Of a DNA stretch of 64,000 nt, positions 7,650 to 59,090 are shown one piece after another. This DNA is from Arctopsyche grandis. Taxonomy: Eukaryota; Arthropoda; Insecta; Trichoptera; Hydropsychidae. Made by a program: the position numbers and the translations under genes. The notes below the pieces were generated by a model, which saw only the letters and a list, made by a program, of their open reading frames with translations, had not been told where the DNA came from and did no database searches. Position 1 is the stretch's first letter. Every line of letters begins with the position of its first letter. The stretch lies in assembly GCF_051622035.1 (NCBI RefSeq), contig NC_135357.1, positions 20,636,256 through 20,700,255 of the forward strand, in the 5' to 3' direction.

Positions 7650-9300
7650 CAGTCGTATGACAACGAATTACTAACACCCGCGTATTTACCCTATTTTGTG
7701 TACCTGCGCCGTCTTAAGTAACATTTTGGGTTGGTTTTTTTTGTAGACCATTCATTGTATCCTATTCTATGTATTTAGAGAAGGATAGGATGAGTAGTGT
7801 TTATACAAATAGTTTAAAAACCGAACAAGTGCAAATACACAGTTTGGCTTTGAAATTCGTTTGGTGTAGACGTGTGCTTTCACTGGGAGAAAAGTTAGTT
7901 TTGAAGAGATTTTTGCTTTCCTGTATATTATCGATATCATTGAAGTAAGTTAAAGTGTTTAAATTTTTTAAATGTGACTTAATTATTTGTTTAAATTGCT
8001 TGTGAAAAAAACCCCTTTCCTTTTTAGATGGGAAGAAATAAAGATTTATCTATGGAGAAAATCGCCAATATTTCCACATTATTAAATACTGGGAAGTATT
8101 CTATACGATATATTGCTAAAGATTAGGGGGTTAGAGTTTTCAGTGTGCATAAAATTAGCACCCAACTAAAAAGAGGTGAAAATCCTACGGTCACCAAGCG
8201 TAAGAATTGTTGTGGCACTCGAAAATACGGTCCTCGAGTCGATCGATATATTATAAATACTGTTGAGAAGGATCGGTTTGCCACAAATAAAAAAATCCAG
8301 ACAAATTTACGGGAGCGGAACCGAAATATCGACTCGGACAATACAACGCCGTTTCGCAGACGCGGGGATGAATGGCAGACAACTACTTAAAAAAACGCTT
8401 TTGACGCCAAAAATGAAGAAAGCCAGGCTCAATTTGGCTAATGAGCATCGCCACTTCACCCTCGACGATTGGAAAGGGGTAATTTAATTGAAATTAAATT
8501 ATTTGTCTAATTTTTTTTGAATGAATTGAATTAATCGATGTTTTTAACATTTTTAAGGTTCACTTCTCTGACGAGTCGTCAATTCAATTGATGACACCGA
8601 CTCACCAATACGTACGTAGGCGAGTCGGCAAGCGGTATAATGAGTCCTGTGTCATAAAAAATGTGAAACACCCGCTGTCACTCATGATTTGGGGCTCAAT
8701 TAGAGCGGAAGGTCGGGGGCCATTGTATTTTGTAGAAGGGATGATGAATGCTTCGCAATATATAACGGTATTGCGATACACCCTATTGCACTCTATACAA
8801 AACAAAATTGACAAAAGGGATCGCCTGCACTTAATGCAATATTTTTGCACCCTGCCATAAAGCCAAAATTGTGAAAAAAATCATGTCCAACCACAATTTA
8901 CCGCTCCTTCACTGGCCCGGTAATTCTCCCGATCTAAATCCTAAAGAAAATGTCCGGCATACCCTTAAAATGAAATTAAATAAGCTCCAATGTACCAATA
9001 AAAATATCCTAAAACAAAACATAATTTCTGTGTGGCAGGGAGATCCTGAGATAAAGTCAACCATTGCGTCTTGTATCGAGAGTATGCCCAAAAGAATAGC
9101 ATCGTGTCTCCGAAATAAGGGTGGACATACAAAATATTAATAATATATATATATGTTGTATTAATATTGTAAATAAACTATGTATAATCATTATAAACAC
9201 ATCTTTGTTTTAATTTTACGAACCTACTCTTCAATATATAGCTCTAAACATAGAATTTGCAAAATCCGCATGGTGTTAGTAATTCGCTGTCATGGGACTG
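7650..9300 (+). mobile_element. Tc1-like DNA transposon (1651 bp)
   Basis: Terminal inverted repeats begin CAGTCGTATGACAACGAATT at the left and CAGTCCCATGACAGCGAATT at the right (reverse complement), and the match extends through ACTAACACC. The element is flanked by TA on both sides (7648-7649, 9301-9302), the duplicated target of Tc1/mariner elements. It contains one decayed transposase gene. Confidence 0.93.
8028..9140 (+). pseudogene. Tc1-like transposase, inactivated
   Basis: Start ATG at 8028, just after a TTTTTAG acceptor-like site. The N-terminal helix-turn-helix (..SIRYIAKD) is followed by a stop near 8124, and frame changes occur near 8310 and 8810. A second DNA-binding half (TIQRRFADAG) precedes the DDW motif. 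A 79-base GT...AAG intron appears to lie at 8479-8557, giving WKG then VHFSDES. The first catalytic Asp (FSDES) is present. The second, expected before APCHKAK, is changed. The third-position Glu (SPDLNPKEN) survives. The family normally has a single ~340-aa frame. The protein is clearly not functional. Confidence 0.88.
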
Positions 9301-25279: not shown

Positions 25280-26034
25280 TGTAGGAATCTCGTCGTCGTC
25301 ATCGTCATCGAAACCTTCGAGAATATTCCGCAACAACAAAATACATCGAGCGGAACAGCATCAAGCATTCCAGAAAATTCGACGCCTCGACGAAAACAAA
25401 ATTCCTCTCGTACGCGTCAATAACCACTTCCATCAAGCATTCCAGAAAATTCGACGCCTCGACGAAAACAAAATTCCTTTCGTACGCATCAATAAACTAA
25501 ATGCTCGTACGACCACTTCCATCAAGCATTCCAGAAAATTCGACGCCTCGACGAAAACAAAATTCCTCTCGTACGCGTCAATAACCACTTCCACCAAGCA
25601 TTCCAAAAACACTATAAAAGGAGGTACAACCCAAACAAGACCAGTCGACCCACAACAGCAAGCGTCGACACACAGCACCAGACCAGTCGACCCAGAGCAG
25701 CAAGAGTCGACACACAGCAGCAGACCAGTCAACATCCAGCTCCTGACCAGCGACTTGCCGAACATAGCTGAACGCCGAGCCAGCGACACTCTACCATATC
25801 CAGCGACTTGCCGAACATAGCTGAATGCCGAGCCAGCGACACTCTACCATATCCAGAGACCGCTGAACGACAAACTTTTGCCAACAATTAATCATACTTG
25901 TGTATACGTGTTACTACCAAATAAATACCATATTGAACATAGCTGTATTTAATATCGAACACAGACGAACCTGTCTATAATACATGGCGGACTGGTGGTG
26001 AAGAAGACCTTCACAACAAGACTAGATCCCCATA
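25280..26034 (+). mobile_element. Solo LTR, copy 1 (about 755 bp)
   Basis: Starts TGTAGGAATCTCG like the LTR at 47650 and is flanked by CCTT (25276-25279, 26035-26038), a 4-bp TSD of the same length as that copy. It contains a TATA-box-like ACTATAAAAGG near 25611, AATAAATA poly(A)-type signals near 25920, and about 3.3 copies of a 72-90-bp tandem repeat (25360-25610). The 187-codon frame across it is a fortuitous reading of these repeats. An alternative reading is an LTR ending at 25984 followed by a TGGCGG primer-binding site. Confidence 0.7.
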
Positions 26035-31692: not shown

Positions 31693-32239
31693 ATTGTCGA
31701 AACTTTTGACGTATAACTATAACTATACGATCAAAAGCGCACTTTACATAACAAACTGACACTCAGTCTTACCAACTTATAACCTATGCTACTGTGGATC
31801 TAATCTTGGTCTAAATCACTTTTTATTGAACTAGTAATAAAAGAGATTACCGAGTCAAAAGTATATTTCTGTCGCACACATTATAATAAAATAGGGACAA
31901 TGGCTTTTAATTACGTAATAAATAAAACGCTAAAAATATTTTCATTACATATTTAATCTATTATTTTATCACTCAGTCGACTATGTCCATTAGAAGAGGG
32001 GACATTTAAAAAAATGCCTTTTGGAAGTGAATGCAGGGCAGTCTCTATTACACAAAATACAAATATTATATGACCAGTTTATGACTACATATATACAGAC
32101 CCACGACTGGAAGTTCTTACCACTAGCGTAAAACTCGTTTTTTGTCGATTTTGTTAAATTTTAGAACAGGAAATGAAACAAAACTTCTTATTATACACGC
32201 ATAATATATTCATCAATAATATTTACAAAAAAAAAACTG

Positions 32240-32533
32240 TAATTAACTTAATATTTAGTTGTCCCTCCCCTATTTGTTATAACAGCCCGAATTGATCTCT
32301 ATGCATGACTGTATTGTTTTTTGATTTTTGAATTATTTTTCCATGTATTTATTATTTTTTCTTTTAAATTATCTAACGTAGTATTAGGGCTGTTATAAAA
32401 AATACTTTTTAATACCCCCAACAAATTTCAATCGGATTTAAATCCGGTGAATTACCTGGCCATAACAAAATTCGAATATTTTTTGTGGTCAGGTAGTTGT
32501 TAATTGTTTTGGCCGTGTGACATCTTGCATAAA
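32240..32533 (-). pseudogene. Tc1-like transposase, C-terminal part
   Basis: Minus-strand reading with frame breaks shows a recognisable 'WPGNSPDLNPIE' equivalent (the segment holding the third catalytic position), complementary to 32430-32465. It is the downstream half of the gene whose N-terminus lies at 35667. The TRIM insertion at 32539-34881 falls just before the second catalytic region. Stops show it was also degraded by point mutation. Confidence 0.75.
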
Positions 32534-32667
32534 AATGTTGTGGCGGCTCGCTTATACGACATGGTCGAGTTTGGTTGCCTTCCTGCGAGTGGGGACCAAC
32601 CCGGCTGGGTTCGGAGAGCCGCTACTCACTCTGTCTTCAGCTGTCATATAATAAACACGTGCATTAA

Positions 32668-33953
32668 CACATAGGATACCACGGGCTATTGCTAAAGAAA
32701 CAGGCGTGCGGCGGGGAGAATTTGCGCTAATCTTTGCATAAAACTGTAACTGTTTAAAATGTCATATCTCTTTTACCAGTAAACGTATAAAAGTGAAATT
32801 TGAAATGCAGTTTCGTATGGACTATCTTAAAATTTCGTAATTGTAAAATCAGTAAAAGTCAAACTGTGAGTCGCGTACTAATAAAATAAATAATTAAAAT
32901 GTGTATAAATATGGCAAATATACATATTTTATAAATAAACAAAAAAAATGTAGCAGCAGTGAACCTTTGTGTAACAAAAACAACAAATGTCGTTATTTGA
33001 AACCTATAAATACAATGCAGTCAGATGCAATTCCATATGCGCTTTGGAATTGCCGACATCGAACAAGGTTAATCCTCTTTCGTCATAAATAACAATATCA
33101 GTGAGAGAATTTTAGGACATCGGCAAAATCTAAGAGGAACATAAAACAGATGTGAGAAAAAAAAAGGTCCCCCCAAAATGTGTTTATTACCTAGTGCAGT
33201 GGTTAGTAACCAGGAGTCAAGTGTAGGCAATAAATTACCGAAGAAATATAAAAGGGCACATAGTAAACAATGGTGATATTTTCTTCAGAACATGAATATA
33301 AAAAAAAATCAAACATATTTATTCAACTAAAAACACAAAAAAAGCATTCACCCAGCAAACTGCACCCCTTATGTAGATATTCACATTTGATTGATTGGTA
33401 GATATTTCCACAATATTTATTTAAAAGTTTCCTTTATATTATAATATATTATCGATAAACTCACTTAATGGTTTTTGATAGTATTACATATTTTTATTAT
33501 TTACACACACACACGTTATTTAAACACAATATGAAATTCATACACTAATGAAATTTTCGCTGGTTTCGAACCTCTGAGAAGGTCGATGACGATCTGTTCT
33601 ATTATTTTTACAAACCTCCTATACGCTTTAGTTAAATAAAATAAAATTTGAGACATCTTCGGCATAACCAAAGAAATATTTTGTAAATTTAAAGAAATAT
33701 TTGGTACATTTCCTATAGTCCAGTTTCTAACCTTCTAAATTTTTCAATATCGACTTTTTTTAAATTATTTTAGTTAAATATCACCAACGACATCTTTTAC
33801 TAAGCCCCGATATGAATAAATTACAAGAAGTACGAGGTTCAACGTGTTTTTTCTTTATATGAAGTAGGAGTGACGCAACGCACAAATTTGTGCGCACGGT
33901 AGCCAAAGGAAGTTTTTCAAACGCACAAATTTGTGCGCACGGTATCCTGTGTG
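32668..33953. mobile_element. piggyBac-like non-autonomous element (1286 bp)
   Basis: Flanked by TTAA on both sides (32664-32667, 33954-33957), with inverted ends CACATAGGATACC and GGTATCCTGTGTG (one mismatch). Two copies of the 16-bp palindrome CGCACAAATTTGTGCG (33879-33894, 33922-33937), each followed by CACGGTA, form subterminal repeats at the right end. TTAA targeting is characteristic of piggyBac-type transposons. No transposase was seen inside. Confidence 0.88.
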
Positions 33954-34124
33954 TTAACATGCCAGTCGTCTCATTCGTTCATCCTCCATACTGGTGACCC
34001 CCGACATCGAGCCACGCAGCCTCGATCAATTTCAACATGCCGCTCATCCCTGCCTCGCCGCGCCCCCATCGCCATCAACACAGCACGCCGCGGCCCACGG
34101 GTGACAATAAACGAGCAGACACGG

Positions 34125-34149
34125 CTACCTACCTACCTACCTACCTACC
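34125..34149. repeat. (CTAC)n microsatellite
   Basis: Six CTAC units inside the internal region of the TRIM-like element. Confidence 0.8.
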
Positions 34150-34214
34150 GACGTCCAGCCACAACGTCGATGACAGATGCTTAAAAAAATGGGGGAGCGA
34201 ATGAGACGACGATC

Positions 34215-34568
34215 TTGACAGCTGGATGTGGAGTCATGCGCGATCCACTACACATAGAACGGTCATCCAGCACCACAAGACATACACCACCTCAGCACCA
34301 TCATCATCATCAAGGCCCCGTCCGTCCCCACGAGCGTCGTCACGCCGAGACGGCCGGTAGCGCTACAACACCTCCACGAGCCACAACGACTCACAGTCCA
34401 GCTCGGAGTATCATCAACCACATCGATGCCCCTGCCGCCCCCGCCGCCCCACCAACCGACATCAGCCTCGGAAGAGCGGCGCCGCCGCAGCATCGCATCG
34501 GCGCGACCATCGGACCACCCACCGTCCTGCTCGCGACGTCACCGCCCTCGAATCTACCGACCATTTAG
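34215..34568 (+). other. 117-codon open frame in the TRIM internal region
   Basis: An open frame rich in His, Pro, Ala, Thr and Arg, with an HHHH run. It has no CCHC knuckle, protease or polymerase motif. The GC-rich composition contrasts with the surroundings. It is probably a chance frame in element sequence. Confidence 0.3.
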
Positions 34569-34889
34569 GGCGGTACACCTACACAGCGGATGACCCACGT
34601 TAACAATTTTTTTCTCCCCACTCAATAATTTTTTTTCTCTTTGTGTAACAATAATTTTTTTCTTTTGTAAAATTTGTTTCTTTGTAATTTTGGTATCGCT
34701 GATGCTGGGGGGGGGAGTGATGTGGCGGCTCGCTTATACGACATGGTCGAGTTTGGTTGCCTTCCTGCGAGTGGGGACCAACCCGGCTGGGTTCGGAGAG
34801 CCGCTACTCACTCTGTCTTCAGCTGACATATAATAAACACGTGCATTAACATGCCAGTCGTCTCATTCGTTCATCCTCCATAATGTAAT

Positions 34890-35667
34890 TATGTGCATCC
34901 ATCCCTTCTGATTCAAAATAAGGCAAAAGTAAGTTCAACAAATTTTTTTTTGTATTGATTCTGCCCCAATGTACGGGTCTATCCCCTTATGGGTTCAGCC
35001 CCTTTTCCGCTAATAACGGACCACACCATACAGATGCATTATATTTTGTTGTTTGAATGGTGCATTCGTCGCTCAGCTTCTCGGAAGGTAGTCTTCTGAT
35101 GTATTGGACAACATCTGTCATTGTCCTTAGAATTGTTTCATTAGAGAAACAAACCTAAAATGAATGAAAAATTAGTACATAGGAGGTTATCAAGTATTTT
35201 TTAGTTTAATATTAATATTTAAACAATACCTTTTTCCAATCATCAGCAGTCCATTGCTGATGTTCCTGAGCTTTTTTTCATCGTTGGTGTCAATTTTGGC
35301 TTATTTATGGGAGTTCGGCTCTTGACGTTAACTTCACGAAATCTACGTTACACCGTCCTTGTGGAAATATCGATACTCTCTTGGTTCAGAATAGCTTGAA
35401 TACCTTTATTAGGCACCTTACGGTTCTCCAAAGCTATGATGATGATTTTTCGATCCGTTCGCGGTGTGGTTTTTCGTTTTCTCCCACATTTGTCGTATAA
35501 TGTAGCAGTTGGATAAACTCCCGATTGCACCAATTGTGCAATATGGGCTACCGTAGGGTGAGAAACATGAAATTTTTTTGCAATTTGTCTGTAACTATAT
35601 GTCTTTTCACTAATAAGTGTGGCAATGGCCACTTTCACATCTTCTGAAATGGTTTTTTTGGAGCCAT
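34890..35667 (-). pseudogene. Tc1-like transposase, N-terminal and middle part
   Basis: The minus-strand start MAPKKTISEDVKVAIATLI is followed by a helix-turn-helix region (YSYRQIAKKFHVSHPTVAHI) and a GRKRKTTPRTDRKI linker, the two-part DNA-binding region of Tc1 transposases. After about residue 106 there is a stop, then further homologous pieces (VNVKSRTPINKPKLTP and, near 35085, RRLPSEKLSDECT) with frame changes. It is broken and non-functional. Confidence 0.8.
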
Positions 35668-36237
35668 TTAAAAAAAAAAGTTTTTGATTAAAAAATCAAA
35701 AAATATATTAAAGCGAACGTAAAAACACAATAAATTATACACAACAATATTAATTTACAACTTATATTTAAAATATTTAAAAATAATTAAACCTTAAGTC
35801 TATTTTTAAGTCAATAATTGTTAATTTACGCAGCGTGTTAACAGGGCGAAAACTGACCGTGAACTGATTCTTTGTTTCTTTCATCCCCAGTTTCAAAATT
35901 TTCGGTTTTTTTCACCACGACATGTGGATTGCTATTCAATCTATCTACCAGTGTTAAAATAAATACGTGTTTCCCACATGTTTGTCAAATTTGTCACAAG
36001 TTTCGCAACCTGTCATGGGTCTGTACATACATATTCAGTAATCAAAAAGCAAAAACATACATAAGTGTTCAGTAATCAAAGAGTATCAAAAGCAAGACTT
36101 GCTTTGTATTTATGAAGGTATATATGACTTGCTTTGTGTTTCATGTGAGCGCTTCCACAAATTTTGAATTTGAGTATATACGAAAAAAATCATACTTTTG
36201 GTTCTTTGATTTCCTGTCAATGCTTTAACTCGGTGGT

Positions 36238-39429: not shown

Positions 39430-41299
39430 TTAACTAGCCGGTGCACCAATTCGGCCTTCCTGCTTTAAACACCATTCAACAAAATCGTCAATAAGCACCG
39501 GCCAAGCACCTTCGGCGTCATAGTTACTCATGTCGTCGTCTATGTGGGTAGCAAAATCCAGTAGAAGATTCCATGTATCTTTAGGAATCGATCGCTTATG
39601 ATGTTCCTTAAAATTGAAAAAAAAAATTGTAATAGAATTTTAACAATCATTACTTAACAAAATCATATATATGTAAGTATTTGGATCATGAATATCGTTC
39701 TCATATTGATTAGGTTGAATATTTCAATCGTATATCAAAGCTGTTCAATTGTGTAAGACTCGCTAACTGTCGGTTGTCATTCATAAAAATATAATATAAA
39801 CATGTATTAGAAATTTAAATCCTATTACCGATCGATAATCTCAATATTTTAGATTTTATTTGGTGTGCAATGTTTAATGCAGCTCTCACGTTACCTAAGT
39901 TTGAACAGCTTTGGTTTACGTAAACATAATCTTAAGTTAAAATAATGAGTAATGTAAACTTACCACTAAAAATTTACACCATTCATCCAGGAATTTAAAT
40001 CGCCCTCTAAGTACTATTTCCCAATACGCTATAGCCATGTCTAGTTCGAGACCTTTTTGGCCAGGATTTTTGGCGTAATTAAAAGTAAAATGATAAAATT
40101 CTTTAAATCTTAAGAAATCTTTGATTTCATTTTCTAATAAGGGCAATTTCGCTCTAAGTTTATCAACCGAATCGGCGCCCAGTTCCTGCATACCCATGAG
40201 AAATTCTTCACGTGTAAATTCGCACTGAACTGCCGCTTTACATTTCCACGCTATTATTAATACTAAAATAGATTCTGCACTAAGATTAAGGTCATCCAAA
40301 AACTTTGTTACACCATCAACAGTAATTTTATCGCTCTCTTGAGGGTCTCTATATTTCGAAAAGAAGACTTCTAATTTTTTTCTGTCTATGGAAGTTTTCG
40401 TAGGTTCCTTACAATATGCAGCGGGGTTTTGAAAATAATTGTCACTCGCCAACTCCAATTTCCAATCATTTTGAGACAAGCAATATATCGCTACAGTTTC
40501 AGTAGTCTGTGTACACGCTATAAATTTTTTAACTTTGTCTTTTTGAGTAGACTTGAGCTTGTGCTGAAACAAAAGATTAAACCAATATAGTATAGTAATT
40601 GCAAACGGGGTAGAAATATTTTGCTTTTATTTATACTAGGTGGAGACATTTCACATAATTGAAAACTACACATTCATATGTACATTTAAAAAAAGATTGA
40701 TTATTTTCATTCAATGACGTCTGTAATTACAGGGCAAAATTCGTAAACATTTTAGTTGAATCACTAAGCAAACTTTTTCAATTGAGTGAACATTAAAAAA
40801 GTTTATCAGAAATTCATCTAGTATAATGTTCTATACAAATTGTCGATTTTATACGTATATTTGAAGTTTTGAAAAGTTGGTCAAATTGGTTTGCATTAGG
40901 GTGGGAATATAGTTATCATATAATGAATGTCAGAATGTGTGCGAAAGATGGTGAAAGCTAACAGGCACATAACTAAAAGTCGGTCTCGATTGATGCGAGT
41001 CGCGTCAAATATCCATTTGAAGTTCAAAAAGTGAAAACGTAACTGGGGATGGTGTCGTAAATTTGATTGTATTGCGCGCGAACGTTTGCACAAACGGATG
41101 CAGCGTTCTTTGGAAAGAGCACTGTCGCAACAACCGGATATGATACGTCACATTGGAAAGGCGGGAGCGAAAATTAGAGGTGGTTCTTGTAGTTTTGTGG
41201 GGGCGAGGGGCGCACCACCCTTTCAGCAGGCTCCTCCGACCGCCCCGCGGAGGACGGGGGCGCCGACGGGGGCGGACGCCTGCGACGATCACTCACCAT
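39430..41299 (-). CDS. DCN1-like protein (DCUN1D1/2-type), 3 coding exons
   Basis: Exons on the minus strand are 41299-41297 (ATG only), 40563-39964 (600 nt) and 39606-39430 (177 nt including the stop), 259 aa in total, equal to human DCUN1D1. DCN1-like proteins are scaffold E3s that help UBC12 attach NEDD8 to cullins. Visible parts: a UBA-like N-terminus ([14 protein letters not shown] to about residue 45), [16 protein letters not shown], then the PONY/DCUN1 domain with [33 protein letters not shown] and, after the last intron, [18 protein letters not shown] and [13 protein letters not shown]. The ATG exon is assigned from a strong donor (AACATG|GTGAGT) and from TTTCAG|CAC at the next exon. 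A GC-rich block upstream fits a promoter. Confidence 0.94.
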
Positions 41300-41832: not shown

Positions 41833-43538
41833 CAGTGGCGGCTCGTCCTAATGGGCTGCCGGGCTGCAGCCCCTCCTATAAAATTCTAAGATATATGTTT
41901 AATAATACATTTAATATTTTATTTATTAATGATATTTTTTTTATTAGTTGGATGGACGAACTATTGGGGCCTTCGACAGAGTAAATATTACTTACAATAT
42001 CACCCATATCCAAAAGGGTGATATTGTAAGTAATGTTGACCGTTTCGAAGACCCCACTAACTTGTATGGTGACAGATGAATTAAAATGTTGCTAAAAAAC
42101 GAGAAAGAGAAAGAGCTATTTGCAACTGCAGATAGCTCTTTCTCTTTCACTCACTCTGCCATTTTGGGCTGGATAGTCGGCAGACTTCGCCTGTTAAACG
42201 ACATTCATCTGTCAGTTTGTTTAAGATTTCGCGCGCTTGATCTTACATTTGATTAGTTGAATCGCACGATCACAGCTTTATTCGTTTTCGTTACTCTTAA
42301 TTGGTTGTGTACGAGCCCTCATCAAATCTTCGGTGAGTCGTTTTCATTTTGATAACAGCAAACTTTTTTCAAATCTGATAAACTTTTTCTCGTAATTTTT
42401 ATTTAAATATATTAAGATTTTTTTTCTTTTAAAAATGGGAGAACAAAAGAATTCAGTAAAATATTCACAAAATTTGCACTTTTCGCGACTAGATCTTACC
42501 GAAAAAGTCGCTATAAAGGCATTAGGCTGCCTCACGCCCAATTTAATTATTTCACAGCCTGCAACTAGTAGATCTTTTAGTTACTCGCGAAAATTTAATC
42601 CAGACATTTATAAAAAATACAATTGGTTAACGAGATGTACAGAAAAAAACGCGTTATTTTGTTATCCGTGTCTTTTGTTTGGAGGCGAGTCGCCAGGCGA
42701 AGCATCTTGGACGAAAACAGGAGTTATTGACTTAAAACATTTAAACGATAAATTTAAAAACACGAGGGAAGTGTCGAACACTTAAAAAATTTGTGTAATC
42801 TCACGATTTTGGGAGATTACACAAATCTCACGATTTTCTAAGCATAACGAAAACATCAAAAAAAATCGGGATATTTTATTTAAAATTATTGATTGCGTTA
42901 AATTTTGCGGTGAATTTGAAATGCCAATGAGGGGACACGATGAAACAGATAATTCAAAAAATCCAGGAGTTTTTCGGGGGCTTTTAGAATATTCACAAAA
43001 TTTCGACGATTCTTTAAAAAAATATTTTCAAACTTCTTCGGTTTTTAAAGGGACATCAAAAACTATTCAAAATGAACTTTTAGATTGTATTTTGAACGTG
43101 TGTAGGGAACAAATAAGTGCTGAAATAAAAAAAGCAACTTATCTAGCTGTTATGGCAGATGAAACAACCGATGTATCGATGCATTGTCAACAGGTTAATG
43201 TTTTTCGTTACGAATTAGGGGGTTAAGTTTTTGAATTGTTTTGGGGTTTTTTTTAATCCGCGTCGCGAAACCAGCAAGAACGAATTTTTTTTAGCAATCT
43301 TACTGGAGTACCAGCGTATTTTTCGAAATCTTCATCGCGTTTGGACGCACCCCTTTAATGGGTGGTGAATTTTGCTAGTTTTTTTTTCAATAATACTTAA
43401 ATCCATATGTAAGTGGTCGTACGCCAAAAATTGTGCTTATTTTGTCCTGTTATGACATGATAGAATAATTATGGTGACATTTTTTAGACATCTTTTCAGT
43501 GCAGCCCCGCCACTAAAAATTATCACGAGCCGACACTG
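41833..43538 (+). mobile_element. hAT transposon relic (1706 bp)
   Basis: Ends CAGTGGCGGCTCGT and, in reverse complement, CAGTGTCGGCTCGT. The perfect 8-bp TSD is GTTACAAT (41825-41832, 43539-43546). It carries a broken ZMYM1-like transposase. Several fold-back structures lie inside, including a perfect 19-bp stem at 41987-42005/42016-42034 and a perfect 17-bp stem at 42103-42119/42132-42148. Confidence 0.95.
42435..43226 (+). pseudogene. hAT transposase (ZMYM1/DUF4371-like), N-terminal half
   Basis: The first frame (42435-42785) contains the TTF-type/MYM zinc-finger region: WLTRCTEKNALFCYPCLLFG then W...GVIDLKHL. The frame is lost at about 42785 and resumes at 42921 (MPMRGHDE...), ending near MADETTDVSMHCQQVNVF, which holds the first catalytic Asp region of this family. 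The C-terminal dimerisation half is absent, so the gene is truncated as well as frameshifted. The frame break coincides with a small inverted plus direct repeat at 42789-42837. Confidence 0.85.
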
Positions 43539-47649: not shown

Positions 47650-48686
47650 TGTAGGAATCTCGTAATCGTCACCGCCATCAAGACATTTACTGCGACGCAG
47701 AATACATTTCCCACGCTCAACCATTGACGTCACCCGAAGTCGAAGAACACCTGCAGCCATTAAACTAAATCGAGTGGAACGGTGCCAAACATTCTAGCAT
47801 ATTCCACCCCTACAAGCCGAGCGGAACGACACGAAGTCGAAGAACACCTGCAGCCATTAAACTAAATCGAGTGGAACGGCGCCAAACATTCTAGCATGTT
47901 CCACCCCTACAAGCCGAGCGGAACGACACGAAGTCGAAGAACACCTGCAGCCAGTAAAAACTAAATCGAGTGGAACGTCGCCAAACGTTCGAGAAACGTC
48001 CACCCTAATCGACAAAAACACATTCATCGCACACGCATAAACACCATCTGCGACGAGTCACGTGATGCCCAAAAACAATATAAAAGAAGGTCCACCCCAA
48101 ACAACTTCAGTCGACCCACAGCAACAAGCGTCGACACACAGCAGCAGACCAGTCGACTCACATCAACAAGAGTCGACACACAGCAGCGGATCAGTCGACA
48201 TCCAGAGACCTTCTGAACATAGCCGAATGCCGAGCCAGCAACACTCTACCGTATCCAGAGACCTGCTGAACATAGCCGAACGCCGAGCCAGCAACACACT
48301 GCCATATCCAGAGACATCTGAACATAGCCGAATGCCGAGCCAGCAACACACTGCCATATCCAGAGACCTTCTGAACATAGCCGAATGCCGAGCCAGCAAC
48401 ACACTGCCATATCCAGAGACCTTCTGAACATAGCCGAATGCCGAGCCAGCAACACACTGCCATATCCAGAGACATCTGAACATAGCCGGATCCAGAGCGA
48501 CGACACATTGCAGATCCAGCGGCCATCACGACACCAAGTCAACAGCCAATAGCCGCTTCAAGAAAACTTCCCCAAATATTCTAATACACTTGTACAATAT
48601 TTAGGCAAACAATAAAACAACTTAAAACAAGCACAACAGTGTTTCGTTAGGCTGGGATACGGTAAACACTTCCTACCCCGCCTACA
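47650..48686 (+). mobile_element. Solo LTR, copy 2 (1037 bp)
   Basis: Starts TGTAGGAATCTCG and ends CCTACA. The 4-bp TSD is CACT (47646-47649, 48687-48690). A TATA-like CAATATAAAAG lies near 48074. Two internal tandem arrays are present: about 97-bp units (roughly 47733-47990, 2.5 copies) and about 52-bp units (roughly 48215-48490, six copies, each with GAACATAGCCGAATGCCGAG). The flanks match the uninterrupted repeat at 30067. The 121-codon frame inside is repeat sequence. Confidence 0.88.
48215..48490 (+). repeat. Tandem repeat, about 52 bp x 6
   Basis: Units begin near 48215, 48268, 48321, 48375, 48428 and 48478 and contain CCGAGCCAGCAACAC and ATATCCAGAGAC. The copy-1 LTR has only about two such units. 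Confidence 0.85.
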
Positions 48687-50255: not shown

Positions 50256-52917
50256 TCAGAACACCAATTCGTGAGGCTTTTTTCGCTTTAAACGCCTCTG
50301 CTGGTGAGTTGTGTCTAACAGCTGCAACGCTTCTATGTTAGGGTGACGGTGCAGTCTCAACTCGTGCCTCCCGGCGCATTCTCGGATGACTTCTTTTACT
50401 TTTTTGATTTTAAGGTCCTTGTGGATCTCTTCATTTGTGACGAAGCGATATGCATCGGTGATAATCCTCAAAAACTGGTTTTGACATCTTTGCATTTTTT
50501 CGATATTGGATGGCTTACTGCATCCCCATAGTTGTATGCCATATGTCCATATTGGCTTCACGATTGCCTGGTATATCAGTTTTTTGCATTGTAGGTCTAA
50601 TTTGGAGTGTCTTCCTATTAGACAATGCATTTCTCTTTGTTTAATTCGAATCTGTTCTATTTTTTTTTTTAATGTGATGCCTCCACGTAAGCCTTGAGTC
50701 AAGATGCAGTCCTAAATATTTAGCTGACAAAGCTTGTGGAACTTGGATTCCGTTTATGAAAGTCTGAGTGCTGACACTATTTCGTCGCAGTGCAAATGTG
50801 AACTGCATTGATTTTAGCTCGTTGAGTTTCATTTTCCAGTCCTTGGTCCATTTGCTGATCTTGTCCAGTGCACGCTGCAGGCGTTCAAATGCTTCCTCCT
50901 GTGACTCGCTCGATGACATAATGACTGTGTCATCTGCAAATGTTCCAATGAATGTCTCTTCGCTTGTCGGGATGTCAGCAGTGTATATCAGGTACAGTAT
51001 AGGCCCTATTACGCTTCCCTGTGGTACTCCTGCAGAGGCTGTGAAAAAGTTAGAGAATGCCTCCTCATGAGCAACTCTGAATTTGCGTCCGGATAAGTAT
51101 GATTCCAGTAATTTGACATAATTTCCAGGTAATGACTTGCTGATTTTGTGGATAAGTCCTTCGTGCCATACCCTGTCGAAGGCCTGTGAGACATCAAGAA
51201 ATACAGCTGGACAATACTTTTTTTCCTCTAGCGATTGCTCTATTTTTGAAATAACACGGTGCACTTGATCGATGGTAGAATGTTTCGACCTAAATCCAAA
51301 TTGGAAGTCGGGAACATCGATTAAGGGCTTGAGTCTTTTTAATAATAGTTTTTCGAATAGCTTAGAGATCGCAGGCAACAAGGATATTGGTCTGTATGAT
51401 GTTACTTGTTCGGGTAACTTTTCTGGTTTCTTCAACATTATGATTTGAGCAGTTTTGAAGCACTCTGGCACATGCCTGAGCCAGAAACATGCATTGTATA
51501 AGTATGTTAGCATGATAATAGCCTTTTTCGAAAGTTCCTTGAATAGTCCCGGTGAGATTTCGTCAATTCCAGGTGCCTTTTTAGGATTTATGTTGTCATC
51601 TATTTCTTTAGCTACTTCCATAGGGGTGACAGTTTTGATTAGTTCCTGTGGTTGATACATTGGTGTATAATCAGCATCAGATTGAATATTGTGTGGTTGG
51701 ATTACTGTCTCTAAGTGTTTTGCAAACAGCTCAGCTTTTTCTTTGTTGCTTCTTATCCACTCTCCTTGCGCATTTTTCAGAGGTGGTATTTGTAGAATTG
51801 GTCGTTTGAATTTCCTAGTTGCTTTCCATAGTGAATGATTTTTATCAGCTGCAGGGCCCAAACCTTCCAAATATTTTTCAAAACAATTTTGTTTGTGCTC
51901 TTTAATAAGTCGGTTAACTTTGTTACTTATGTGGTTAAATTCTCTTTTGTCTGCAATATTTCGGGTTCTATGCCTTATTCGTCTTGTTCTACGTCTTTCT
52001 TTAATCAATTGTCTAATTTCCATGGGGTAATTAATGATTTGGTCTGGTTTTTCTTTTGGTACAGGTGTAGCTTCTTTCGCAGCCTCTCGTACAGAGTCAA
52101 TAAAATTTTGAGTGTGTAGTTCGAGATCTTCTATAGTTTTAAGTTTCACTATTAAATTTATTGATTGGTCTAGTTTTTTTCTGAACATATCCCAGTTAGT
52201 GCGTTTATTTGTCAGGTTCTGTCTCCTTATTCTTTTAATTACCAGTGTGCTCAGTGTCATCAGCACTGGTGTGTGATCAGAAGTAAGGTCCTCTATTCCT
52301 TCGACCTCAATGTGGTTTGGGGCTATTCCTTTGGATATAAAAAAGTCAATTAAATCTGGTACCTTTTTACTGTCGGTCGGCCAGAAGGTTGGTTTTTGTG
52401 AGGAATGATACTCGCACGAAGAGCTCTGAATCGCGTATAGAAGGTTGTTTCCTTTACCAGGAGTTATAAGTCGTGATCCCCAAGCTGTATGTTTAACGTT
52501 GTAGTCTCCTCCAATAATAAATCTTGGCCCAAGGGAATTAAAGATGTTTATAAATTGGTATTTTGTGATAGTATGCTTTGGAGGACAATATGCTGCAGCA
52601 ATATTTAAGTCAGCATTGCCATATTTAATTGTGATGATAGTAGCTTGCATGAATGGTTCTCTGATATATTTTTGTTCGAAGTGCTGGATATTTTTTTTGA
52701 TTAAAATAGCAGTACCACCGCGAGCTCGTTCACTAGGATGTGTTGTCCAATAAGCTGAGTATCCATTTATCTTTATGTAACTTCTTTGTGAAAAGTGTGT
52801 TTCTGATATTAGTGCTAGATCGATGTTGTTTGTCTTTAAAAACACTTCAAGTTCATGGACTCTCTGATTGAGTCCGTTTGCATTCCATGTTAATATGCGT
52901 AGGGAATTATCTGTCAT
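50256..52917 (-). pseudogene. LINE ORF2: AP endonuclease + reverse transcriptase, one frameshift
   Basis: Start ATG 52917 (MTDNSLRILTWNANGL), overlapping the ORF1 stop by 11 bases. The endonuclease part shows WNANGL, ISETHF, GGDYNVKHTAW and SDHTPVL. The reverse transcriptase shows YRPISLLPAISKLFEKLL, FGFRSKHSTIDQ, FLDVSQAFDRVWHEGL, GVPQGSVIGPILYL and the catalytic FADD, then KYLGLHLD. The main frame fails at an A-run (T10 at 50659-50668). The C-terminal part (TYGIQLWGCSKPSN, about 120 codons) continues in another frame down to 50256. Total about 890 codons, close to full length. One homopolymer slip is the only visible lesion and could even be a sequencing error. Confidence 0.9.
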
Positions 52918-53579
52918 TTTTATTATGTTTACTTGGTGATTTCCAATGATTTTCAATTTTTTCCACTCTGGTTATGAGCCAGTTGAATTGTTGTTTTATT
53001 TCAGTTTGAAAGTCACATAGCAACTGCATCATGCCACCGATGGTAGGTTCAGTTGATTTATTTTTCTGCCCGATATCTTGTTTGCTTTTGTCTGCTTGGG
53101 ACTTAGCTGCTTCACTATATGTTTTGTCCGCAGTTGTTTGTTTATCAACAACTTCAATTTTATTTTGTTGTACGCGTTGCGTTACTGTTACCTTTTTGGG
53201 TTGTGATGATTTTATCTTTTTTTTATAGACCTCACACCCCTTGTAGCTAGCTGGATGTCCTTGCTGGCCACACAGGGCACAAGTTGGGGGAACATTTTTC
53301 TGCTTGTTGCATTTTGTTGTGTGATGGTCTGCGGCACATTTGACGCATTTAGGTTGTCGATTGCAAAAATTTTTTGTATGCCCAAGTTGTTGACAGTTTG
53401 TACACTGAGGGATGTCTTTTACTTTCATTGGTGGTTCAATTGTTACTCTGCAATGTAGAAGTTCTTTAATACATTGATGCATTTTACAATAAGATACATT
53501 CATAGCTAGAAGATTGCTTTGAGGATACATTGATGCATTTTTTGAAAATGCAAAAAAATGGGTCTGATCTTTTTGTATG
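52907..53579 (-). pseudogene. LINE ORF1 (gag-like) with CCHC zinc knuckles, N-terminally truncated
   Basis: Minus-strand frame ending at TAA 52907. Three zinc-knuckle-type clusters follow one another: CTNCQQLGHTKNFC, CVKCAADHHTTKC and CALCGQQGHPASYKGC. They are followed by a Lys/Gln-rich tail and a final coiled-coil-like segment. ORF1 of Jockey elements binds the element RNA. The usual N-terminal half is missing because the copy is 5'-truncated. Confidence 0.85.
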
Positions 53580-53599
53580 GTCACGAAAAGTTACGCAAT

Positions 53600-56591: not shown

Positions 56592-57164
56592 CTATTTTTT
56601 TACACTTTTCAAACAAATCTTGCCTCTGAAGTTCACGACGGACTCATCGACCACTATGTCTCTGCATGGTATAATTAATTGTCTGCATTTAGCATCTAAA
56701 TGATTCAAAAAGCCATTGTGTTCTACATTATTATTTTTGAGTTGTAATATCCGAAATATTTGTAGAAAACGATCTCTTTTGAAGACACTTTTAAAACATA
56801 TTTTCAACCGAAAAATAATTTTTTTTTGGTTGAAAATATGATTACTTAAAATCGACCAATTATCACTGTTTGTATCTCTGATATCATCTTCACTATCGCT
56901 TAACGGTATCAACATAGCGCTTTTTTTTTTTTTACTTGGTTGGGGTTGAATGCCACTTCCACTGTCAAAATTTTCTACATTATCAAATACAAAATAATTA
57001 TCATCACTATCACAATCATTTTGGAAGTCTTCTAGGTTTTGGAAGTTTTCTAGTAGGTAACGAATAGAAAATGTGATTTTAACTAACAGTTTAAAAACTG
57101 AAATTTCAATGGTGCCAACACTTGTATTTATTATTTCACCATATGCACTAATATTGCCGAGCAC
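56592..57164 (-). pseudogene. piggyBac-like (PGBD) transposase fragment
   Basis: Minus-strand open frame. Acidic region (FQNDCDSDDNYFVFDN and LIPLSDSEDDIRD), then SVFKRDRFLQIFRILQLKNN, then CRDIVVDESVVNFRGK. The DES...FRGK motif holds the first catalytic Asp of piggyBac transposases, and 'RDRF..I.R.L....N' is the segment before it. The remaining ~300 residues are missing. The first ~40 codons read through the inverted-repeat arm and are probably not original protein. Confidence 0.82.
57052..57099. repeat. 48-bp inverted repeat, right arm
   Basis: Partner of 56453-56500. It overlaps the start of the piggyBac-like open frame. Confidence 0.9.
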
Positions 57165-57169
57165 GTCAT

Positions 57170-59090
57170 TATCACATCATATGTATATTCCGTACAACTT
57201 TTATTAAATTGATTCATGGTGCAAAATATATTTCACGTTTTTATCATTATGTAAAATTATGGTCAACCCACCGAAAATAGCTTCTTAGAGCACAATGTAT
57301 CGATACCGACAGCCCAAATAAAACGGCGCACTCAAATGTAGAAGCAGGTAAAGAATGCAAATATTCTTAGAAACAATATAGACGCTAGCCCTTTACTGTA
57401 ATTATCCCATTTATACATTTTCTAGCATCTCGTATCCTTTAAGTACACTATTGTAAAATAAAACCTTCAAAAATTTGCCAATGAATATTAAAAATAAAGC
57501 TCCAAAGTAGCCGCTTAACAAAGCCACTATACTGGCTTTCTGAGCTGGCAGCCGAATATCCGAAATCCACATAGTGGCTTTCAGAGTTCAAGACGTTAAG
57601 TGGTTTGTATTAAAAATACTGAGCAAAACCAGGTACAACCACCAGTACTGTAATAAAGAAAATAATAAAGAGCCCGAGTTTTTGATTTTTTACAACTGAC
57701 TGCTTGAATGCTCCGACTCCACATCCCTGGATAATGTATTATTTCAATCCAAAATGTCCAACGACTAATGAAAGATTACTATAGTATGTCTATTCTTTAC
57801 CCCAAAGATGAATACGGATATACATTTTAGATTTCACTGTTTTTCAGATATGACTGTTAGAACCTGAGAGTTGATCTGCGCCAAATCTAGATGAGCAGTG
57901 ATGTGCAACTACAACGAGAGCGGCGACCTGGTGGTGGGTCATAGCTACCTGCCAAAGCAGTCTCCACATAAATCCCTATTGTCTTGAAAGAATTTCTTTA
58001 CATGACTAAATATTTGAGCTTTGTGCGTGAGTATCGAGCTTTGCGTCGCCCTGGTGTTTCAGCTGCTCTTCCGACATGTGCAGTCTCGCCTTTTCTTCTG
58101 GTATTTTTGCCTTGCTCCAATGCTTGAGATGGTTCTAGAAAATTTTATTGTATTTCCCATTTTAAACTCTGCATTGGGGCTTGGTGACGCCTTCGTCACC
58201 GGTTAGAACAAACATAAACTAATGTAATGTATGATTATTTTAATTATGATACACATACATGCATCAAGTGAGTATAGACTGCTCAGTAAAACATGCACAT
58301 CTGTATGAACGTGTTTTATGAAACAATGGTATTCTTAATTAAAAGTTTCATGTGTCCATGCCATGACACTTGGTGCGAAAAGCTGTCTTCATACCTGGAC
58401 TTTGGCTGTAACACATCTATAAATGCACATTTCATAACTAACTATTTAACTATGTAACATGTGAAGTTTGTGGGCGATGCTAGTTTACTGTAATATACCA
58501 AATGTCATTTCTGATTTAATTTGAAATGATTTGGTTTATGATTGATAAATTCCTCTATTGTCATGCCATAGGCATACAAATATTGTATTATCAACTAGCC
58601 CCCTGTATGTCTGAAATTTATTGGAAATGTGGTAGTGGTTTGAAATGAAAGGTACTGATAAAAAACTAACATGAACCTAAATATTATAAAATCTGGTAAA
58701 TAACAAAAACATGCTGTTCAATATGGCTTGTTGTACAGGCGTATCACTGCATGGGAAAAACAGTACATCAAATTTTCGCTGAATCTTCACATTGCTTCTG
58801 AGTAAGGTTGACAGATTTTCAAAATTACAGATCATAAAATAACCCCGTGTATACCTCTCTTTATACGGCTTTTCGCTATAACTTATTGTGATCCTATAAG
58901 TCGGTACATAATTAACATGTCAAAGGAGAATATTTCTTAGTATGTGCAGCTTGCCGCTGGTGCACTGCGGAATAGTGGGCAGATTCTGATATAGACAAAA
59001 TACTTTTTTTTTAATTTATACTTGCATATTTGACTTTCTCTAGACTTAACAACATTCATCGGGCCCTGCTTTTAGGAAAAAAAGTGCGAC
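57170..59090. other. Stretch without a supported gene
   Basis: A coding-like patch at about 57900-58200 has higher GC and an open frame on the plus strand (FVREYRALRRPGVSAALP), but stops interrupt it and no family is recognised. It may be a decayed retrocopy. Confidence 0.35.

Follow-up and report, generated by a model that had tools for sequence, protein, structure and literature searches.

The window analysed here, a stretch of 64,000 nucleotides of the Arctopsyche grandis genome (C3:20636256-20700255; genome of 475.7 Mb in 189 contigs), contains a locus at which transposable elements of three kinds appear to lie one within another, and the question it raises is whether they entered one after the other, and in which order. 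A sequence-only reading had proposed a three-level nest, with a TTAA-flanked element in the 5' LTR of a miniature LTR retrotransposon (TRIM) that is itself placed in a Tc1-like transposase gene, and had ordered the arrivals as Tc1-like element, TRIM and TTAA element. Our analysis confirmed the nest and supported the order, as each inner joint has an empty-site counterpart, and we are highly confident that the locus (Table 1) arose by three successive insertions, of a Tc1-like element, then of the TRIM and then of a piggyBat-like element.

Table 1. Features of the nested locus, with positions counted from the first nucleotide of the window.
Feature	Position	Strand	Basis
Tc1-like element with TA duplication	32094-36025	-	alignment with 6 paralogs, HTH domain, frames
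TRIM target duplication ATGT, left copy	32535-32538	.	family comparison, sequence
TRIM 5' LTR, first part, 129 bp, TTAA at its end	32539-32667	+	sequence
Non-autonomous piggyBat-like element, 1286 bp, CACATAGGATACC...GGTATCCTGTGTG	32668-33953	+	
Two perfect palindromes CGCACAAATTTGTGCG	33879-33894, 33922-33937 (unit region 33879-33947)	-	sequence
TRIM 5' LTR, second part, 33 bp with final A	33958-33990	+	sequence, family comparison
Primer-binding-site-like CTGGTGACCCCCGAC	33991-34005	+	sequence; kept in other full-length copies
TRIM internal region, non-coding, 730 bp, polypurine tract at 3' end	33991-34720	+	
TRIM 3' LTR, intact, 162 bp	34721-34882	+	sequence, family comparison
TRIM target duplication ATGT, right copy	34883-34886	.	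family comparison, sequence

Boundaries and order of the insertions

The inner boundaries were observed directly. The 1286-bp insert of the earlier description stands, occupying 32668-33953 between TTAA copies at 32664-32667 and 33954-33957, and the 3' LTR contains a single TTAA, exactly at the point where the 5' LTR is broken. The 5' LTR parts had been given as 129 and 32 bp, matching a 3' LTR of 161 bp; the match holds at 160 of 161 positions when the joined 5' LTR (32539-32667 plus 33958-33989) is set against 34721-34881, with a single T/A mismatch at position 106, but the length does not, the LTR really being 162 bp long. In all 24 distinct TRIM insertions that could be read in the genome the base following LTR position 161 is A, and the fifth base to the left of these insertions varies (T8 G8 A7 C1, n=24); therefore, the final A belongs to a 162-bp LTR, and the target duplication of the window TRIM, proposed as AATGT, is the 4-bp ATGT, while the proposed TTAA duplication was right. 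The ATGT site is uninterrupted and without a TRIM in all six Tc1 paralogs fetched. Because both inner insertions thus have empty-site counterparts, one in the 3' LTR and the other in the six Tc1 paralogs, both seen directly, the insertion order is supported and can itself be counted as observed.

Other histories can be imagined for such a locus. That the TTAA element is a fixed part of a TRIM subfamily, and that both moved jointly, is exceedingly improbable, given that the window's own 3' LTR is without the element and that, among the 30 element loci fetched, an LTR adjoins the element only in the window copy (L030), so that in the copies sampled it is not a constant part of the LTR. No support for joint movement was found, although the LTR search prefers uninterrupted LTRs and could overlook such copies; since an interrupted LTR would score lower in that search, the absence of further cases rests mainly on the 30 loci fetched out of the 43 places of the element. 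Genome searches with the TRIM and with the TTAA element showed that both families occur apart from each other in the sampled copies. An assembly artefact, which the repetitive nature of both inserted families might favor, deserves hardly any credence either, because a mis-join would not be expected to leave the inner joints with exact target duplications, the outer ends with TA and the two LTRs with a single difference between them.

Under three successive insertions the Tc1-like element is the oldest layer, and its outer limits, too, needed correction. They had been set at 32103-35855; alignment with six paralogs, judged by eye, places the ends at 32096, where CAGACCCACG follows TA, and at 36023, where CATGGGTCTG precedes TA, giving an element of 1580 bp without its inserts. 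The left end is common to five of the six paralogs and the right end to three (L068, L071 and L072, again by eye), and it is on these three that the right outer boundary of the nest depends; compared with them, the right inverted repeat of the window copy is about 20 bp short. The paralogs come from a genome query with the right part of the element, which gave 42 matches (99 candidates, 40 scored), six of which were fetched and aligned to the joined flanks. The window copy diverges from them by 1.9-7.2%, the top value (L070) including a poorly aligning stretch. It was the paralogs that solved the ends; inverted repeats taken from guessed ends had given nothing, with an alignment score of 48 where shuffled sequences averaged 42.7 and reached up to 74.

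The TA duplication, the inverted repeats, of which the right one is partly deleted in the window copy, and a transposase with an HTH domain (HTH_23, above the Pfam cut-off) are those of Tc1/mariner elements (IS630-Tc1), from which nothing notable differs here apart from the broken state of the copy. The transposase gene lies on the minus strand, is interrupted and contains stop codons; its DDE part, known from the reading frames only, is divided by the TRIM, and one stretch of the gene, read by eye on the minus strand, is intron-like (GT...AG). Three Tc1 copies on C2 (11741854, 11830222 and 11903239) neighbour one another with nearly equal scores, and in the pairs L026/L027 and L056/L057 copies with the same flanks stand at nearby places, which suggests recent local duplications in the genome. 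A second Tc1-like piece (DDE_3, below the cut-off) lies at 8525-8860 of the window.

The Pfam survey of the window comprised 10 proteins out of 72 frames. A frame at 39937-40626 (minus strand) with UBA_4 and Cullin_binding domains, a pairing that we take to be DCN1-like, is likely a host gene, and a DUF4371 frame at 42786-43226 is presumably hAT-like. Pieces of a non-LTR retrotransposon at 50256-53590 (minus strand) include an endonuclease and reverse transcriptase frame and, upstream of it, a zinc-knuckle-like frame recognised by eye. Two composite minisatellites at 25359-25885 and 47732-48498, 22.4 kb apart, have units of about 42 and 53 nt in common and look as if they were parts of one repeat-bearing element.

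The TRIM family and its possible helper

Without its insert the window TRIM measures 1054 bp, with two short LTRs, a short non-coding interior whose two longest plus-strand frames gave no Pfam match, and both TRIM signals in place, the primer-binding stretch CTGGTGACCCCCGAC after the 5' LTR and the polypurine tract GGGGGGGGGAGTGA before the 3' LTR. An LTR query of the genome returned 1482 first-look candidates, the best 40 of which were scored and proved 99-100% identical throughout, and 28 loci from among these places were read (8 cut out by the search and 20 fetched). The 24 distinct insertions obtained from them comprise 13 full-length elements and 11 solo LTRs, leaving out the interrupted window copy (L002), a copy whose interior is broken (L013), an incomplete LTR in L004 and repeats of insertions in the count (L005, L007 and L026). 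In the full-length elements the paired LTRs differ at 0 or 1 of 162 bp and the interior is 721-798 bp long; aligned blocks of the interior are 81.6-97.0% identical between the window TRIM and other copies. The primer site is constant in full-length copies save for its first base in one insertion (L026/L027), and the tract varies in L005/L006. A 4-bp duplication accompanies 23 of the 24 insertions, L020 being the one without a matching duplication, and six of the 24 show a 5-bp one. Twenty-nine of the 39 distinct LTRs with intact ends are identical, and position 106 is T in 37 of them and A in two, one being the 3' LTR of the window and the other the solo LTR L001; since all these counts were drawn from the best matches (40 of 1482), the youth of the family is overstated.

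L001 equals the window 3' LTR exactly, the rare A at position 106 included, and it may descend from the window TRIM or share a common source with it. The window copy itself has probably ceased to act as a source, because the last insertion split its 5' LTR. Viral contigs contained 0 matches to the exact LTR pattern and 0 to the primer-site pattern. As described in PMC3532108, PbTRIM of the ant Pogonomyrmex barbatus is similar in being small and non-coding, with a primer-binding site, a polypurine tract, 4-bp duplications, recent copies and numerous solo LTRs, and its LTRs of 152-184 bp are near the 162 bp found here; its length of 480-781 bp, in contrast, is below our 1054 bp, a leucine-tRNA primer site is reported for it, and the comparison is one of described features.

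A Helenus-type TRIM, with a tRNA-like LTR, was also considered but not supported: an Rfam scan of 32000-36000, taken up to E 5, gave no tRNA, and ARAGORN found none across the whole window. The sole Rfam row in 32000-36000 is a miRNA family, far under its gathering score, over the palindromes of the TTAA element. Scanning the LTR for bacterial promoters was set aside as irrelevant for an animal element.

The helper of the TRIM was possibly a Gypsy element of the CsRn1 lineage, to which both the 4-bp duplication and the start TGGTGACCCC of the primer site point, a start that we take to be typical of a tRNA-Trp-type primer site and of this lineage. That a helper of another kind mobilised the TRIM is somewhat less likely than not: the primer-binding stretch is one C longer than the tRNA-Trp-type site, whereas its typical start and the 4-bp duplications fit the CsRn1 lineage. 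According to PMC3630058, CsRn1 elements are primed by tRNA-Trp and their duplication is typically of 4 bp.

Copies, transposase, ends and target sites of the piggyBat-like family

A genome query with the TTAA element, whose ends read inward are CACATAGGATACC and CACACAGGATACC, gave 54 first-look candidates, of which 40 were scored, and placed the element at 43 sites; 30 loci were fetched. On C4, at an unrelated site, there is a copy with 100% identity to the window element over 1290 bp, and in some copies the match to the window element is interrupted by about 2.1 kb. Six long copies were read complete and thus observed directly (L059-L062, L066 and L067); they are 3410-3413 bp long, pairwise 99.82-99.97% identical, and each carries a 584-codon open frame (in L059, 572 aa when counted from the first methionine). 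Other long copies, for instance on C3 and C6, are outside these six, and in one of them, L063, the match stops early on the right side. The window element has no long reading frame, so it encodes no transposase itself; it equals the long form except that about 2.1 kb, the whole frame included, is missing, with TTT shared at the joint. Judged by this comparison of sequences, it is a transposase-deleted derivative of the 3.41-kb piggyBat-like element.

The L059 protein, from the one long copy given to Pfam, matches DDE_Tnp_1_7 (7.3e-80), with zf-Tnp_2 below the cut-off. Its best solved relative is piggyBat of Myotis lucifugus (9c0f, E 8.3e-150), followed by the chain 6x67 (2.5e-35), named "Transposase" and presumably piggyBac. 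It can be aligned with piggyBat from residue 13 to the end and has seven C-terminal cysteines and histidines in common with it (by eye), although one histidine of piggyBat in this region is not present here. Aspartates 236, 308 and 414 align with piggyBat aspartates and are, we assume, the catalytic triad; for piggyBat D237 this role has the backing of PMC11707139, where its mutant is used. As candidate relatives of the transposase, a peptide pattern matched 6 viral-contig and 43 genome-contig stretches, none of them confirmed. The window also holds a remnant of another piggyBac-type transposase at 56592-57176, on the minus strand (Pfam DDE_Tnp_1_7, 2.1e-5).

In L059 the palindromes CGCACAAATTTGTGCG occupy bp 17-32 and 60-75, each preceded by GG(A/C)TACC, with the units 43 bp apart, and within 400 bp of the opposite end no palindrome 10-18 bp long is perfect. 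The window copy retains both palindromes at the end corresponding to the transposase-start side of the long copies, and there each adjoins a minus-strand GG(A/C)TACC. For piggyBat, PMC11707139 places GCGGGA at bp 11-16, 55-60 and 99-104 of the left end only, each followed by an imperfect palindrome. In both elements one end carries motif-plus-palindrome units, spaced by about 44 bp, and the other end is without them; they differ in the number of units (two here, three in piggyBat), in the palindromes, perfect here and imperfect there, and in the motif itself, GG(A/C)TACC against GCGGGA (PMC11707139). The units are putative transposase-binding sites.

All 27 two-ended insertions have matching 4-bp duplications (23 read directly and 4 via end regions), namely 22 TTAA, 2 TTAC, 2 TTAG and 1 TTGA. 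Each insertion was counted once, and the one-ended copies were omitted (L081, L079, L063, L084 with L045, and L047); the expected other end of L079 was absent in L080, and the left end in L084/L045 is irregular. These five omitted copies have TTAA at whichever end was read. L056 was also omitted, its left flank TTAC being that of an insertion already counted. The non-TTAA share is thus 19% (5/27; 95% interval 6-38%). PMC3849761 tabulates a non-TTAA rate of about 12% for Pokey and gives piggyBac elements rates of 7.2% (bat cells) and 2.4% (human cells), with alternates that retain the middle T and A. Since the chance of at least five such sites among 27 would be 0.21 at 11.9%, 0.04 at 7.2% and 0.0004 at 2.4%, the share clearly exceeds the human-cell rate and shows no clear excess over that of Pokey. 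The TTGA site is the one non-TTAA case without the central TA, and all five altered sites retain the first two T in the orientation of the window, which, with n=5, may be chance.

Pokey of Daphnia and its short form mPok, as presented in PMC3849761, also belong to the piggyBac superfamily and combine short deletion derivatives with non-TTAA duplications, although those duplications are TTAT, ATAA and CTAA, unlike the TTAC, TTAG and TTGA found here. A young family as such is unsurprising, since intact copies with very recent insertions occur in many beetles, where few elements lie off the canonical TTAA, according to PMC12732532. We suggest, tentatively and at a little short of an even chance, that the long copies and their derivatives form a young family of piggyBat type that may still be mobile, that chooses its targets in a markedly relaxed way and whose one-sided palindromes, in two units, are cleaner.

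Proposed mechanism and significance

We propose that a Tc1-like DNA transposon would have entered a TA site and that the 1054-bp TRIM would then have integrated at ATGT inside its transposase gene, presumably by means of the reverse transcriptase and integrase of a Ty3/Gypsy element that may belong to the CsRn1 lineage. The 1286-bp piggyBat-like element, its transposase gene already lost, would finally have been pasted into the TTAA of the TRIM 5' LTR, and the likeliest source of the transposase for this step is the set of 3.41-kb full-length copies at other genomic sites; present-day activity of any of these enzymes is something that we infer. As cut-and-paste at TA, LTR-type integration with a 4-bp duplication and TTAA cut-and-paste in trans explain the three layers, no new mechanism is needed. 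The nest is correct but ordinary, such nests being common in animal genomes; it is a clean example of dating by layers, and its chief use is as a check on annotation. The piggyBat-like family is the most useful by-product of the analysis and matters more than the nest, as near-identical full-length copies, deletion derivatives and non-TTAA insertions together offer a natural set for questions about target choice and the role of the palindromes in the superfamily.
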